This document shows, one piece after another, positions 4,619 to 18,200 of a DNA stretch of 64,000 nt (positions are counted from its first letter, which is position 1; each line of letters opens with the position of its first letter). The position numbers and the translations under genes are program-made. Location of the stretch: positions 11,917,307 to 11,981,306 of the forward strand of contig NC_057920.1 in NCBI RefSeq assembly GCF_018873765.1, in the 5' to 3' direction. The stretch is from Telopea speciosissima. Its lineage: Eukaryota; Streptophyta; Magnoliopsida; Proteales; Proteaceae. The notes beneath the pieces were generated by a model. It had not been told where the DNA came from and did not search any database. It worked only from the letters and a program-made list of their open reading frames with translations.

Positions 4619-4834
4619 TTTGACTTTTAAATTTGAACTTACATGGCTTTCTTTTCCATTCTAATCTTTTATGGGTTCATATGACAAATGTGATTAGACA
4701 TGAAGATTTCCATCTCATCCCCCTTCCCCTTGCATATTTGTTTTCTTGTCTTGTCTCTCTTGTTGTTTTGTATCCTTTTACTTTTTTTGTCTTCCCAGCA
4801 GTTAAGCTGAATTTTATATTTTCTACAAATGCAG

Positions 4835-5589
4835 GCTGCAGCCATGTTTAAGGTTTTGAGAGAATCCCCTCCAATACCAGAAACGTTATCTCCGGAGGGC
4901 AAGGATTTCCTTGAGTGCTGCTTTCGAAGAAATCCTGCTGAGAGGCCATCAGCCAGCATGCTATTAGAACATCGTTTTGTGAGGACTTCGCACCATTCAG
5001 ATGTTCCTGCTTTCACCCAAGTTTTCGCTGGAATGAAGTTGGCGGTAAGTCAAAATATTAACAAATCGTTTTTAATCATAAGTAGTACATCTGTTTTGAC
5101 GATATTCTAATCAAATATTCATTACAGGATAATGCTCATAGTCCAAAAGAGTGGACTAAATATAATAAAACTGACATGTTGCCTATCTCCCCAAGCACAC
5201 CAACTACCAAAGGGAAACTGACGTTTACTGGGTAGGCTTCTCTACATCACACCTCCCCAACCAGTCTGCTCAGAAATTACCACTCTTAAATTAGTAAATT
5301 ACTTCTGCAAGACCACCGGATCCAGCTTCATGCATGATTATTCTTTTTCTCCAGTGCAACTATTCAACGACCTCATCCTGAAACTGGCAAATCCGCAGTG
5401 GTCATTCGTCATTCTCCTCGATCTACCCTTGAGGCCCTTCCAAGTTTATCTCCTCCACATTCGAATCACATGACACAGAGTCCCAGATCTTCTCCGAATG
5501 TTCTCAATGGTATTCATGTGGGTGTTGGGAGCAATAATTTTTCTGCTCTTCCGAGGACTCATGGGAGGGACTTTGCTGACCTTTTTTGA
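4835..5589 (+). CDS. MAPKKK3/5-like protein kinase, last three exons only
   Basis: This is the C-terminal end of a MEKK-type MAP kinase kinase kinase, a Ser/Thr kinase that phosphorylates MAPKKs in plant immune and developmental signalling. The exons are 4835-5044, 5128-5231 and 5355-5589, all with GT-AG borders and continuous frame. The first starts AAAMFKVLRESPPIPE and includes PEGKDFLECCFRRNPAERPS, which is kinase subdomains X-XI with the invariant Arg. The next two encode a Ser/Pro-rich tail (RHSPRSTLEALPS) ending in DLF and stop, closely matching the Arabidopsis MAPKKK5/MAPKKK3 tail. The catalytic lobes are absent from the window, so the remainder lies to the left, beyond an intron of more than 4.8 kb, or this is a 3' gene remnant. 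The 3' UTR probably runs to about 6100. It is tail-to-tail with the FkbM gene. Confidence 0.85.
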
Positions 5590-8396: not shown

Positions 8397-11300
8397 TTAC
8401 TTGGTGCAGTGAGCATCTGTACCATGCTGAGTGCACTGGTGATAACCCATGCTACCAAGAAACTCCCGAATCTCTTTGGCACTGCTATTGCTAGCTTGCA
8501 GCAAGCGTTCGTCTTCCTCGTATATTAGGTAGGGCGCTTTGCCTCTCTTTCTAGACAACAGCTTAGAGGCTCCTCTCAATACATGATATTCCCAACCTTG
8601 AACATCAATCTTGAGTAAAACCACCTCTTGTGATTCTGGGATCACTTCATCAAGAGGAATAGACCTCACCTGAAGCTCAATCTCCTCATTGGACTTGAAT
8701 GCCAGCTTTGCACCTACGGCAGAAACCGCACTGTTGTCCAGCCTTCCAACCAACTAGGGGGAAAAAGATGGAAAAGATGAGCAACAAAGTGGTCAAATGG
8801 GATATTGAACAATTACAAACACATAAAAACTGTTTAAGAAGCCATACCTATTTATCCATACCATGCATAGGGATGGGAATCCATATGATATACCAGTATT
8901 GAAAAGGATCATGGAACACAGAAGCTCAATGCAAAAGCATCTTTTTTTTACATTAATTAAAACTCAATCTTGAAACAAGGGTAGCAAGTAAAATAGAGTT
9001 AAGAACAAGAAATGCATTTGAATCCCCAAAAGAAAACCCTTTTAGAAACACGAAAGTCTACTCTGTTAATGTTTTTTTTTTTTTGGGATGGAGATAGCCC
9101 TCAGAGGTTCGCTCACTTTTGTAGATGGATTAAGCTCTTCGATTCAATAGCAACAAGATTGCAGATGACTTGGCTAGACAGGACGGCAACCAATAGTCAG
9201 TTATGAAACTGATTGCCATACTTGCCTGTATTCTTTTGCTTCGTCCATCTCTTTGCTCAATTGTGGAAGGTCAATGCATTTGCCACTTGGGGTTTTTATC
9301 ATTCATTCTTTCTAATGAATGGTTTGGATTGGCTGTGTGTCAAAATTCCAGACTCAAATTGAATTATATACCCTCCAAGGTACTAAATGCACCCTAAGTA
9401 GTTCATGTAGCATGCACCCTCTCGCTCATCCTGGATTTTTCAATGCTTTATTTTGCCATTTGGCCAACTCCATTGGGCTGAAACTACTTGATATAACCTG
9501 TCCACAAAATTTCAATCACATCCCACCTGTAGATGGCACAACTAGATTCTATATTGAATGTCTAGGAAAACCACTCCTTCTAGTTATTCATTAGGGAGGA
9601 GAGGAGGAGAAGCATAGTTGTCAAGGCGTAAACCTAAGTGCCTTGTTGGTGTTGCCTTGCATCCAGGGCCCCCTCCAATGCCTTGGGTCACCTAGGCCCT
9701 ACATGATAACACTTCTGTTTCTCTATTTCTCTATTTTTTTTGTTCCTGGGAACAAAAAAACAGAATAGATTGTTACCGCCGGTTCATTTTTTTGTTCCTG
9801 GGAATGAACCAACAACAAATAGTTGCTGAGAAATAGAGAAACATATGCTTTAATTTGGAACTTCTTTAATTTGGAACTTCTTTTGTTCCCAAAAACAAAA
9901 GGGAGAGAAATAAGCGGGAGAGTTGCACTTTAATGAGCACATGGTCAATATGATGGGCAAAATAGTAATTTCATGTTCAAAATAAAATACCACCTCCACC
10001 GCCACAGCCACCACCACCACCACTACCATAGCCTCCATGTACGCCTTCAAAACCTCTACGATCTCTCCCAACATATCCATTCAGATCACACCCTATAATA
10101 ATCTTTTCGCCTTGACTAAAACCTTGCACTAATTCATCCATTTGTTCCCAAAATTGTAACTTACTACTTTAATCTAAGGGAAATTTTCACGTACCTCCCC
10201 TGAGGTATCACGTAATTACAAAAACACCTGTCAATTTTGGGAAATTTCGCGTGCCCCCCCTATTTTTCTAAAAAGTTTAACACATGCCCCCATTCCGTTG
10301 GACTAACAACGTTAAAATCAATGGGTAAAGAGACAAAAATGCTCTTGCAAGAAAGAAAAAAAAACCTGCAACTCATCTTCCCCAAATCGTTTAGTGTTTG
10401 AAAAAAAGGGAAGATGAGCTGTAGGTTAGGGCCTCCTAGGTGAGGATTGGTTCCATGAAAATCATTATTGAGGGCTCAGACTGACCAAAAGGGATCATTC
10501 TAAATTGGTGGAAGTGAAATTGTTCTGTGATTGAGGAAGTCCCTCCCAATGAACACATTCCCCTCAACTTCCTATATTGTAAACAAGCTTACAAGGTAGC
10601 TTTGCAGCTTCAGATCGTATGCAAATCTAACTATCGAGCAGGTTCAGAACAAGGCCTGAATTTGGTCAATTAACAGAGTTCCAACCCGACTATGATTTGT
10701 TTGGGTTATAGGCCATTTATAGATGACCATTTCCTTTTATCAATCGATCAGGCAACTATGGCAGAGACCAAACCAAGAGAAAAGAATACAGGCCATTCTC
10801 ATTAAACCTGTGCACACTGACCCAGGTTTTGAACCAACAATCCAAGTTTTGGTAGACAAGACAGAGTTATTCACCAGGCATCGCTTACAGAACATCTCGA
10901 TGCATCCACCGATCCATCTAGTCGACCTTCTGATTCTGCAATGGATGCACTGAAGAAGGAAGGAGAAGAATCAAAGGAAAGTTCCGTTGTGATAACCGAA
11001 GCTGTGATGTGTCCTGCTGATGCTGCCATGGCTACTGTGTCCGATCTTCAGAAAAAGATCTGTCGTGCAGAGCATTTTGGGATGTTCGTTCAACTCTCAG
11101 AAGAAGTAAAGAGGAAAGGTTCATTTTTTCTTTTATTTTTCCCTTAATATATTTTACTGCGGAGGTTTCTGTGAACGAGGAGGGTTTAGTGTGTTCTATG
11201 ATACATGTTAGGGTTCTTGCGGTTTTCAGCGTATATTGCGTTATTTCTGAAAATTCTGGGTTTTCTGAGGCCTTAACTTACAACTCATCTTCCCTTTTTC

Positions 11301-14300
11301 AAACCCTAAATGATTTGGGGAAGATGAGTTGCAGGTTTTTTCTCTTTTTTTTTGCAAGGGCATTTTTGTCACTTTACCCATTGACTTTAACGTTGTTAGT
11401 CCTACACTAACGGAATGGGGGAATAAGTTAACTTTTTAGAAAAGTAGGGGGCACGCAAAATTTCCCAAAGCTGACGGGTGCTTTTGTAATTATGTGATAC
11501 CTCAGGGGAGGTACATGAAAATTTCCCTTAATCTAATCCTACTTGGGGTGCGTAGGCGCTAATTACATTGACAACATCTTTCTTCAACACAAGCTTGATG
11601 GATATAATCCTATCTCCAAATCTTTTAACATCCACCACATCAATTTTTAGATCTTTGTCCACTACTATGCTCACTCGACTTCTATTACTTTGATCTCCCA
11701 TATACCAAAGTTTAAAGTCGTCCAACACCTTAGCTTTTTTACCCTTCCATATAGTCTCTTGAATACAAATAATATTAATCATTCTTCTCCTCACAACATC
11801 CATCAACTCTAGACTCTTACCCGTTAAGGTTCCAATAATCCAAGATGCTAATCTAATTCTATGCTTTTGGACTAGTATCTTAACTTGCACTAGTCCACTG
11901 TGCAAGAACCCTTGCGTACTTGTCAGCGCAACCGGGCGCCGCAGCAGTGCATCACTTACAGGGGACCCCTTGCAAAAGGTTTATAGGATATGTTTCTAAG
12001 AAAATAAAAGTACTCATAAAATAGGATCCATGCAAAAAGGGGATTAGCTGAATATAATAAGGTGCCGACTGCCTACCTAACGCACCAATAAAAATATAAA
12101 TATATACAATAAAGTAAAGTGAGAGGAGCACCCTAATGTATTACACAGACAATCTCAACACTTAAAATAGAGCGCATAACATGATGCATAGTCACCAGGA
12201 AATCAGTAAAGGTACCAAATATAACAAAGAACTACATCTAGTCTAACATATGCACTTTGAGACCCCTGATACGGTGGAATAAACAAAGCAAATGAGTCAA
12301 GTAAAGCAAGGTCGTTATAGTGCAGTATAAAGGAATAATTGAATAGGAATAAAGGAATGAATAATGCAAGAATTAACCTCGAACCAGGGAAACCAGCAGG
12401 AGATCGATTGCAGCAGGATCGACACAATGAAAGGAACAGCAGCAGGGTTCAAGACTGAGGTCTAGTGGGCTCCTTAGGGGCCGGAAGCAGTCCTCCAAGT
12501 ATCACTCTGATTGGGAAGAAGAGTGCTGAGATCAAGACCTTCGAATCAGCAACAGTGAATAAGGAACTGATGCAGCCGTAAGTGTGAAAAGTGGTCTTCT
12601 TTGCCCCTGGACAGCAACAGCAGATTCAGTTGTTTAGGATGCTCTCTAGGTCTTCACAAATGTAGTAGCAGGTAGCAGCACTTGATTGCAGTCACACAAC
12701 AGCAGAAACAGTAGGGAATCGAATAGAGAAGAAGTAGAAGATAGGAGAAAAAGGGAAAAGGGATAAGGAGATTGGCTCTCTCAGCCAGGCCTCCCAGCCC
12801 TTCATGTCACACACATGGACAAGAGAAAAGTTGCTCCAAGCAATAATAATCAACTTCATTAAATCGTCTGTTTGGCTTCTAAAAGCCTTATATATAAATA
12901 GTTAGCAATGACTTGCTCTTCAAATTACAAAAATTAGAAAGTTTTAACTTTGACAAGTCCTAAAATTGGAAACTATAAAAATAGAAACAATAAAATAGTA
13001 AGTCTCGAATTGGGATCTCTCTCGCATGCAAATTTTCTATCGGGAAACCCTCGAAACTTCTATTATCGTTGGTAGGAGCGGCAGGATGATGATGAGTATA
13101 TAAATAAAGAAATATGAGACCAAAAAGAAGAAATGGCAAGAGAAAGATATTGTATATCGATGGAGGTGCATTGCTGATGTGGAAAACAGGGCAAGGATTC
13201 TCTACAATAACACTGTTAAAAAAAAGGGAATTAGTGCAGCTTGGTAGTGCCTTTGTTTAGGGTAAAAAATTTCACAGGTTCAAATCCTGTCATCCCTACC
13301 TATTACTTCTCCTCTGGGCAGTAACGATGGATCAATTGAGGTCAAAACAAATTGGACATAAATAATCTTTCATTTTATGATAGGTAATGAATGCAAGGTG
13401 TTTTGGGAAAAAAGAATCCTTTTCTTTACAGTTTTATTCTTATCTATTGTGAGAGACTTGGATTACAAGCAACGAAACTAAAATAGAAACTAACTGAAAT
13501 ATAAACTTCTAAATAAAAGCTAAGCAACTAAAATAGAAACTCTAATTTAGAAACAAATAATTAACAAAATAGAAACTAGGTCTATGCCAAAATAGAAACT
13601 AAATTAATAGCAGCTTCTAATAGAATATTCCACCACTATCCAGCACCTAATCATCACACCAGCAGTCCATATCAACCCCAAATCACTGTTCACGTGAACA
13701 CTGTCGCACGAACAGTAACTCGTGGTACTGTTCACGTGAACCTTTTTCTTTTTTTTTTTTTAAAAATTCTGTCTGTCTTCTTCATGCTTCGATCTACATC
13801 AATAAATATCTCAAGTCTCCACACAAGTAACTCAATAAGTAACTCTTAAATAGTCATCTTATAAACTCCATTTTTTCATTCAATAAGGTTGTAATCCATT
13901 AACTTCGCACCATATCAGTCACAATAATAGTCAACCATGGGTATTGGTTGGCCATGCACCTCATCTTGTATACCAATACCTCTTGTAGGTTGTGGCCTTT
14001 TTTTTTTTTTTTTTAAGACAACCGAATACAACAACAACAACATTATGAGGGACCAGCACAAGGGAGGCACAATGACCCTACAAGTGAAAGGGGGGATGTT
14101 GATGTATTTTGAGAGAGCAGAATAGTGACAAAACTTAAGTTTACCTTAAAATAAGGTAATGAGTAAGAATTGCCCTCACACAAAAGTAAACAATATCAAT
14201 CCACGACTCAATCCACTCCTAATGTTTCGGTTTTATATTAGGAGGGAGGGAAGCCATAAAAATATTGAAAGAACAAACAGGGCTCAACACGGCAAAAAAA

Positions 14301-15291: not shown

Positions 15292-18200
15292 CTCTCAGGT
15301 TAGCAACTTCCCATTTTCTTGTTCCTTTCCTTTTCTCTCTTTCTCACCTCTACCCATTTCCCTCCTTCTTCTTTTGATTCCTCTTCAGCTTTCAGATATC
15401 TCTGTTTTGTATTTAAATTCCTTTGGTAGGTTTTCTCAAAACAGAGAAACTGAAGTTACTACTTCAGAACCCGTTTAGAAAATTTTAGGATCCTTTCTGG
15501 GTTGTTCTATTACTTCTGTTCTGGTTGAATTCTTGAAATTTTAGCTTATTGATCATAACCCATTTTGAATTATATACAGTTCAGTGTGCAGAGGAACAAA
15601 AACCAGTCTTTTGAGAAATGGAGAATTTTGTTGGGCTTTGTAAGGGAGACGATCAGATGGATTTACCTCCTGGGTGGGTTTCGATTCCACCCAACTGATG
15701 AAGAGCTTATAACTCACTATCTGTCCAAAAAGGTTATTGACAGCAACTTCTGTGCTAGAGCAATTGGAGATGTGGATTTGAATAACTTCTGTTTTGTATT
15801 TAAATTCCTTTGTTCTGAATTCAAGCAGCATATGAAGTAATTCACTACTTCTACCTGATTATCTATGGTGCATCATGATTATCAAAACTTAATTCTGAAT
15901 TCAAGGCTTGGGTTTGAAAAAACCCAAGCCTTTGTTTTCCATACCATGGTTTTGGATTTGGAAAGATTTTCATCGAACGAGAATGAAAGCGAGGAGTTCT
16001 TTGTTAATTATTTGATTTGTTTTTAATGGGTCCTGAATATGTATAGGGCTGCTAGGTTCGATGTAGATTATAACAGGTCTTATGACGTCGTGCTGTGAGA
16101 CTAAATGGTTCAATAAAAGGGTATTTGAGGTTTTGAATCTTGTCAATGGCATGAAACCATTTTGAGAATTATTGGAATGATTGTGATGCAGAGTCTCTTG
16201 TTTTTTTTGGACAAGAACTTCTGAGTTCATGGGCTTGTAATGTAAAGCGTATGGTTCGCTATTGGAGCAACTTTCACTTTATGGTACAATTTTAATGCAA
16301 GATAGTAGCATGCATTCTGCACAGTTGTTGTAAATATACTAGTCTTGATCATTGAAGTTGTAGTATTCCTCATGAGAGTTGGAGGTAAAGAACATGAGCA
16401 TAGTAGAGGGCTAGAGGTACAAGTGATGGAGGTAGATAAAGAGGTGTATGCGACAAAGAAGGAAAGAGAGAGTGATAAGTTTGAAGTTTGGAAGGAAGAG
16501 AGAGCCCAACAGGGTTGGAGTAGATAGTGATTATATCATGAGTGCCTTATGTAGGGAAGAGAGAGCTCAATATGTTGGCATGTTCATTTCTATCTCACTG
16601 ATGGTGTTGATTTTCATACCATGTGTATGTAGCGTAATATTATGCTCACTAATCAGCACACCAACCATTATCCATAAAAATTATGTTATATTTCTATTAT
16701 ATTGCCATGTTTCTTTTCTGAAATACTCACCTGACTTCAATGCTCTCAGTTTTTTATTTGTGTTAGAAATGCAGAAGTCCTGAACATTTTGTAAAGTAAT
16801 TCCTTTGTGATGTATACAATGCAGAAGTCCTGAACATTTTGATCAAGTACTATTCTGCTTATTGTTCAGGTATACAAAGACAGGAATGTAGTTACACAAC
16901 TTGTGAGACGAGCTGAAAGGGCTGGTTTCAAGGCAATTGCCCTCACTGTTGATACTCCAAGACTAGGTCGCAGGGAAGCTGATATCAAAAACAGGTACAC
17001 CTGAAACATGCTAGACAAAAATAACTTGAAAGATTAGGTGGAGCAGTTTTGACACTGCACCAGCCCATGGGAGTTGATTTTTGAGGTCTTAAACTAAGCA
17101 TGTGAAAATTTTTCCCGGTTACTTTATATGTACATGGTTAGGGTTCTATATTGAAAGAGGGGGGAGGGGGGGGGATTTCATTAGTTATTACCAAATTGAT
17201 GGGTCTTTAGCTCAAATTGGTGGTTCGAATCCACCAAGGCCCTTTTTATTCAGCTGTTCATAGCATAGTCAGTTATGGCACTAATCCACACAAGAACCCA
17301 ATATTAATGGCATTTTTTAAATTTGACATTTTTATAATTACTTTGGTTATGTTAATGATATATTTTACTTTTATGCTAAGATTGGTAAGAGAGAAAAGGG
17401 TTTTAAAGTATTTTTTGGTATAAGTTACAAGGAAATGGCATTATTATAATTAATATCAAATTTGGAAAAACAGGTTTTACCAAACACCATTTTTGTTCTG
17501 AACACGTTCTTGAGACCGTTACCAAACAGTCATTTTCAGTAACTGAACGACGTTCCAGACCAGAAACACTCATTTCTCGTCAAGAACGGGTGGTCTTAGT
17601 TCAGACCGTTACCAACCATAACCTACTTAAACAACGAAAAGAATGAGAATACTATTATTATTATTAAATAAAAATGAGAGAATAATACCTTATGGAAAGT
17701 GATATTCCCGATCCGATCCGAAGCGGCAGCCTCAAACACAGTAACCACGTCCCATACCCGATTCAGGAAAACGCCATCACAGATCCTCTGCAGATTCTCA
17801 AAAACAGGATCAAAGGCCAAGACCTTAAACCCCATAGCAGCGGCAGCGAAAGTCGCCATTCCCACATTTGCACCCACATCGACGACGACGTATCCACCAT
17901 CCCCACCGCCACCTTGTTCTCTCAACTTCTCCAGAACCTCCTGAATCGTCACAGAAATATCAGGCTTTCTGAAAGGCTTCCCTTTAAGCATTCGAACGAT
18001 GTTCTTGTGAGGCTTATCGGGTAAGGAGCCGAGATCAGCAAGAGAGTAAAGGAACGGGTAACGAACACCTTCGACAACGTTAGCAATCACCGGGTAACCC
18101 TGAGGGCATTTGTAGCAGTCGAAAGGTTGGATCGAACGGAAGGGAAATGGGGTTTTGAAGATCCGCTCTTTAGTGAAATTTGGGTTTGGAATTGAAGTTC

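Follow-up and report, generated by a model that had tools for sequence, protein, structure and literature searches.

A very probable Pack-MULE in Telopea speciosissima that joins DNA of two unlinked loci, one of them a MOS11-type gene

The 64,000-bp stretch of the Telopea speciosissima genome analyzed here (hereafter, the window; contig C5, positions 11917307–11981306) contains a 1,350-bp element at 10178–11527, or 10169–11536 when its target-site duplications are included. The perfect 9-bp duplication claimed in an earlier reading made without database searches (hereafter, the sequence-only reading) is present: TTAATCTAA occurs at 10169–10177 and again at 11528–11536, and both copies were delimited from the sequence, from empty-site alignments, and from the flanks of family members. 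The long terminal inverted repeats (TIRs) of about 260 bp described in the same reading were likewise recovered. The left TIR (10178–10435, plus strand), delimited by the match between the two TIRs and by family comparison, starts with GGGAAATTTTCACG, and the right TIR (about 11267 to 11527, minus strand) was delimited by the TIR–TIR match. The two arms, each ~260 bp, are 87% identical to each other (DNA match: E = 4.2e-84); because insertion leaves LTRs but not TIRs identical, this divergence is no basis for dating. The inner end of each TIR carries a 20-bp inverted repeat that is 90% complementary (left TIR: 10363–10382/10408–10427; right TIR: 11275–11294/11318–11337), and the fold of the left one (−30.4 kcal/mol, z = −4.8) was matched by 0 of 200 shuffles.

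Two captured segments fill the space between the TIRs. The first (10432–10863, plus strand), located by a genome DNA search, derives from C7:28095805–28096128 (minus strand of C7). The second (10859–11267, plus strand) derives from C2:5985338–5985759 (minus strand) and comprises part of exon 1 of a MOS11/CIP29-type gene together with the adjoining intron, as judged from a predicted exon border. It includes an open frame of 68 codons and a stop that begins at an internal ATG (10941–11147, plus strand) and is judged to be a relic. A transposase gene is absent: the interior consists of the captured segments, except for stretches of 44 bp and 66 bp in the first one for which the C7 locus offers no match, and of 828 PF10551 candidates in the genome, the 150 that were scored included none from the window. 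Elsewhere in the window, we observed matches to the end of a protein kinase (4829–5107, plus strand; E = 4e-6, below the Pfam cut-off), an FkbM methyltransferase (8400–8753, minus strand; E = 3e-14), and a NAC/NAM domain (15565–15837, plus strand; E = 3e-9).

The genome (822.9 Mb, 1,287 contigs) was searched for the parent gene that the sequence-only reading had expected, and the donor was found at the C2 locus, on another chromosome-sized contig, with 88% DNA identity to the second segment. This locus has an ATG at C2:5985827 followed by an open stretch of 115 residues, and its exon matches Tho1_MOS11_C (PF18592: E = 1e-12, 48.2 bits), above the cut-off of 26.8. The proposed relation of the coding fragment to MOS11/CIP29 is thus borne out at the DNA level, and the 20-residue motif on which it had been based is encoded at 11046–11105 (plus strand). 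The window fragment itself reaches 18.6 bits (E = 0.0019), under the same cut-off, and covers only positions 4–29 of the 37 in the profile; among the eight candidates of a genome profile search, only the C2 donor and a C1 paralogue exceeded the cut-off (window: 18.4 bits). Because its own profile score falls below the cut-off, the gene identity of the fragment rests on the DNA match, and we class it as a relic outside the MOS11/CIP29 protein family. The captured piece begins 68 bases past the A of the start codon, inside the exon, and extends ~145 bases beyond the predicted exon end at RAERF. Given that it reaches past the exon, its template was genomic DNA rather than mRNA. A 12-bp loss in the element corresponds to the donor codons NSRA. 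A motif search of the stretches around the C2 locus found no later exons, and the apparent intactness of the donor gene covers exon 1 only.

The C7 locus supplied about half of the interior, which is therefore chimeric, a point that the sequence-only reading had missed. Alignment of the first segment to C7 gave 282 identical positions in 324 aligned columns, and a genome search with this segment returned two candidates only, namely the window and the C7 locus. The C7 piece lies ~0.8 kb past the end of an open frame of 129 codons that runs the opposite way and had no match in Pfam. Short identities occur at the joins: CCTC is common to the left TIR and the C7 piece, AGACA to the C7 and MOS11 pieces (or six bases, if a single subsequent change is accepted), and a single G to the MOS11 piece and the right TIR. 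The one-base identity is no evidence of template switching. The joins would fit template switching in repair, as argued for animal Pack-TIR elements in a previous study (PMC8277862). The interior was made by copying and joining DNA from two unlinked loci, the C7 locus and the C2 MOS11-type gene.

The element is a member of a TIR family that is dispersed across the genome. A search with the whole element gave at least 111 matching pieces (best 40 of 2,055 candidates scored), and a 27-letter pattern of the TIR end, with at most two mismatches permitted, was found at 322 genomic positions, compared to 0 for the reversed control. When sibling elements were sought, as the sequence-only reading had proposed, 33 places including the window were examined, among which 22 were two-ended and 11 one-ended within the stretch examined. 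When a perfect match was required and the ends were allowed to shift by no more than one base, 9-bp duplications were present in 12 of the 22 two-ended members, and the other 10 lacked one. Control pairs, each combining the left flank of one element with the right flank of another, gave 0 of 462. Among the 21 delimitable interiors, most show no relation to one another: eight local similarities occur in six pairs, extending to at most 196 bp (at 90%), and the window interior takes part in none of these. Genome searches were made with the interiors of three siblings. The first (L010) matches a low-copy locus at C10:57588739–57589463 (92% over 715 bp), with further matches at C4:35581937–35582429 (89%) and C10:8390854–8391553 (71%). 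The second (L018) is a mosaic of three collinear pieces of C2:70047086–70047743 (82–91%), the remaining stretches being repetitive. Unlike the low-copy interiors, the third (L023:756–1688, C7:8378205–8379137) is multi-copy, with nine further places at 84–91%. Carriage of a single-copy host fragment is thus shown for part of the TIR family at most.

Using the C1 paralogue as an outgroup, 13 changes in the MOS11 piece were polarised to the element branch, and 10 of these are C>T or G>A. Among the unpolarised C7-to-element differences, C>T or G>A accounts for 3 of 42, and 13 go in the reverse direction. Methylation-type decay of the whole interior is therefore suggested by the MOS11 piece and finds no support in the C7 piece. 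The same discrepancy bears on the proposal of the sequence-only reading that the element could silence its parent gene, a reasonable idea and, by analogy, a possible one, in which transcripts or siRNAs from the element would reduce expression of the C2 MOS11-type gene. The 88% identity between the two sequences speaks for it, as does the description, in a review (PMC13317346), of captured sequences in maize as siRNA reservoirs that are able to affect donor genes, with a reported link to siRNAs directed at these genes. However, at 88% identity few 24-nt siRNAs would be expected to fit both sequences perfectly, the captured piece alone is uninformative on antisense transcription, and the C>T/G>A excess of the MOS11 piece is not seen in the C7 piece, so that we regard such a reduction as improbable.

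One relative on C10 (L013, C10:15013599) carries an overlapping piece of the same MOS11 exon. In this place (L013:500–1060, C10:15013598–15014158), the left TIR is followed by a ~90-bp piece and then by 222 bp of MOS11-type sequence that is 91% identical to the same gene, starting ahead of its ATG and ending within exon 1; the 4.4 kb downstream yielded no right TIR. The left parts of the two elements differ, with the C7 piece in the window vs. the family-internal ~90-bp piece at C10. The latter belongs to a TIR-adjacent piece of 80–110 bp (L013:740–837) that also lies beside the TIR in two other members (L014 and L024) and recurs at C7:27510633, C1:31831304, C1:2847829, C7:25354703, and C7:62519194 (80–87%), and it is perhaps an older captured fragment that spread with the TIR family. 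The question of one vs. two MOS11 captures was addressed in 119 columns common to the window, the C10 place, and the C2 donor. Three states are common to both elements and unlike the donor, and two of these also occur in the C1 paralogue, leaving only one possible shared-derived site, which is a CpG C>T change. Another 11 sites are private to the window and four to the C10 place, and one is different in all three. The combined proposal that a single MULE family took MOS11 exon 1 twice independently as a preferred site, and that small RNAs of the copies act on this mRNA-export gene, appears very improbable.

The frame in the window runs uninterrupted through the captured exon and includes an internal ATG, features that would favor a new or decoy MOS11-like peptide. 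However, a comparison of 246 bp of captured coding sequence with the C2 donor gave a dN of 0.116 and a dS of 0.067, with a ratio of 1.75 that rests on 3.7 synonymous and 20.3 other differences in a short segment and includes donor-branch changes; the ratio between the C2 and C1 paralogues is 0.44. All 13 polarised element-branch changes alter an amino acid, compared to 3.7 synonymous changes in a simple neutral simulation. Because polarisable sites are those conserved between the paralogues, and are thus biased towards amino-acid-changing positions, this excess is taken to reflect absent constraint rather than positive selection. These substitutions give no indication of constraint on the captured frame, and with its partial, sub-threshold profile match, a coding role of this kind seems highly unlikely.

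The target of the element is a LINE-like repeat, itself repetitive, which the sequence-only reading had overlooked. A genome search with the right flank gave at least 40 other matching pieces (best 40 of 913 candidates scored). Part of this repeat in the window is an open frame of LINE-like appearance at 11531–11905 (minus strand); the frame of the repeat (e.g., L065:1522–2043, 173 aa) had no Pfam match at E 0.01 and resembles what we take to be a plant LINE endonuclease. For the empty-site comparison, 20 loci were taken from the right-flank search and, with the window itself left out, 19 were aligned to the joined flanks. In 18 of these 19, the alignment is continuous through the insertion point and the element is absent (20 alignments across 18 loci, two loci having given two each), including one copy (L067) with a 5-bp gap at the site; in the exception (L069), the alignment stops short of the site. 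Empty sites mostly read TTCATCCAA once, and the window has TTAATCTAA twice. Both TIRs and the interior are one insertion event into the repeat.

The sequence-only reading had itself considered that the TIRs might be two separate MITEs with unrelated flanks; on this view, they would lie by chance around a MOS11 pseudogene fragment. Short places with the ends of the window element do exist, as in MITEs with Mutator-type ends: three two-ended places of 440–458 bp have no detectable duplication, and at C11:15046254–15046536 opposite TIR ends without a mismatch lie 283 bp apart, a near-minimal, MITE-like form. In contrast, the window element holds host fragments between its TIRs, and the perfect duplication lies outside both of them. 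Because the target site is uninterrupted in 18 of the 19 other copies of the repeat examined, which lack the interior and both TIRs, the TIRs arrived in a single insertion, and a chance arrangement of two MITEs is extremely unlikely. Equally negligible is a processed (retrotransposed) pseudogene flanked by repeats afterwards, for which the location within a LINE-like repeat could be cited, since the fragment begins inside an exon and about 145 bp past the predicted exon border align to genomic sequence of the donor.

Because it carries captured host DNA but no transposase between long TIRs and is flanked by a 9-bp duplication, the element is almost certainly a non-autonomous Mutator-like Pack-MULE; in a tomato study (PMC3310237), duplications of 9–11 bp serve as a criterion and Pack-MULEs are commonest at 1000–1200 bp. 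The TIRs, the duplication, the MOS11 DNA match, and the empty site all agree with the gene-capturing Mutator element of the sequence-only reading, and the label ‘Mutator’ is based on the 9-bp duplication and the long TIRs. Pack-MULEs of rice, maize, and tomato share with it long TIRs, a 9-bp duplication, host fragments without transposase, and a size of about 1–1.5 kb; there is no difference in kind, and the window element joins two unlinked donors. Animal Pack-TIR elements, attributed to gap filling or template switching (PMC8277862), also have filler between the TIRs and short join identities, but they are metazoan, and the window element has two fillers (from C7 and C2, vs. its own contig C5). 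Among the papers searched, none mentioned both Pack-MULEs and MOS11, and the main text of the one paper listed for Pack-MULEs with Proteaceae made no use of the term Pack-MULE. The element cleanly exemplifies a known process and leaves knowledge of Pack-MULEs unchanged; with the element, its empty target, two donors, and the joins all within one genome, it provides a test case for DNA acquisition by Pack-MULEs.

Formation of the Pack-MULE may have begun with a break or stalled replication within a parent element, after which repair would have copied one ectopic template and then another. Template switches could have occurred at the short identities of the joins (CCTC, AGACA, and one G). The filled element would then have been moved in trans to contig C5 by a Mutator-type transposase, and it may now be decaying without a coding function.

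An autonomous element with these TIRs was not found among 150 of 828 MULE domains and 100 of 322 TIR ends, and the transposase domain nearest to any TIR end in this set was 30 kb away. Two larger places were considered as autonomous partners and rejected. A TIR-paired, 7.4-kb place with a perfect 9-bp duplication (C3:65590510–65597933; L028:495–7918) contains a Copia-type RVT_2 domain (E = 3e-70), and the part of it that was scanned showed no MULE transposase. The place at C6:5658534–5667568, with opposite TIR ends separated by 9.0 kb, is a candidate larger family member; its first 2.75 kb (L038) likewise showed no MULE transposase, and a frame there had no Pfam match at 0.001 and is presumably Copia-like. 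On C4, one frame located 1.3 kb or more inward of a family TIR (L041:4003–5244, C4:22903641–22904882) combines a retroviral-type RVP_2 aspartyl protease (E = 1e-11) with a partial protein kinase (E = 5e-10), and is possibly another captured gene piece.
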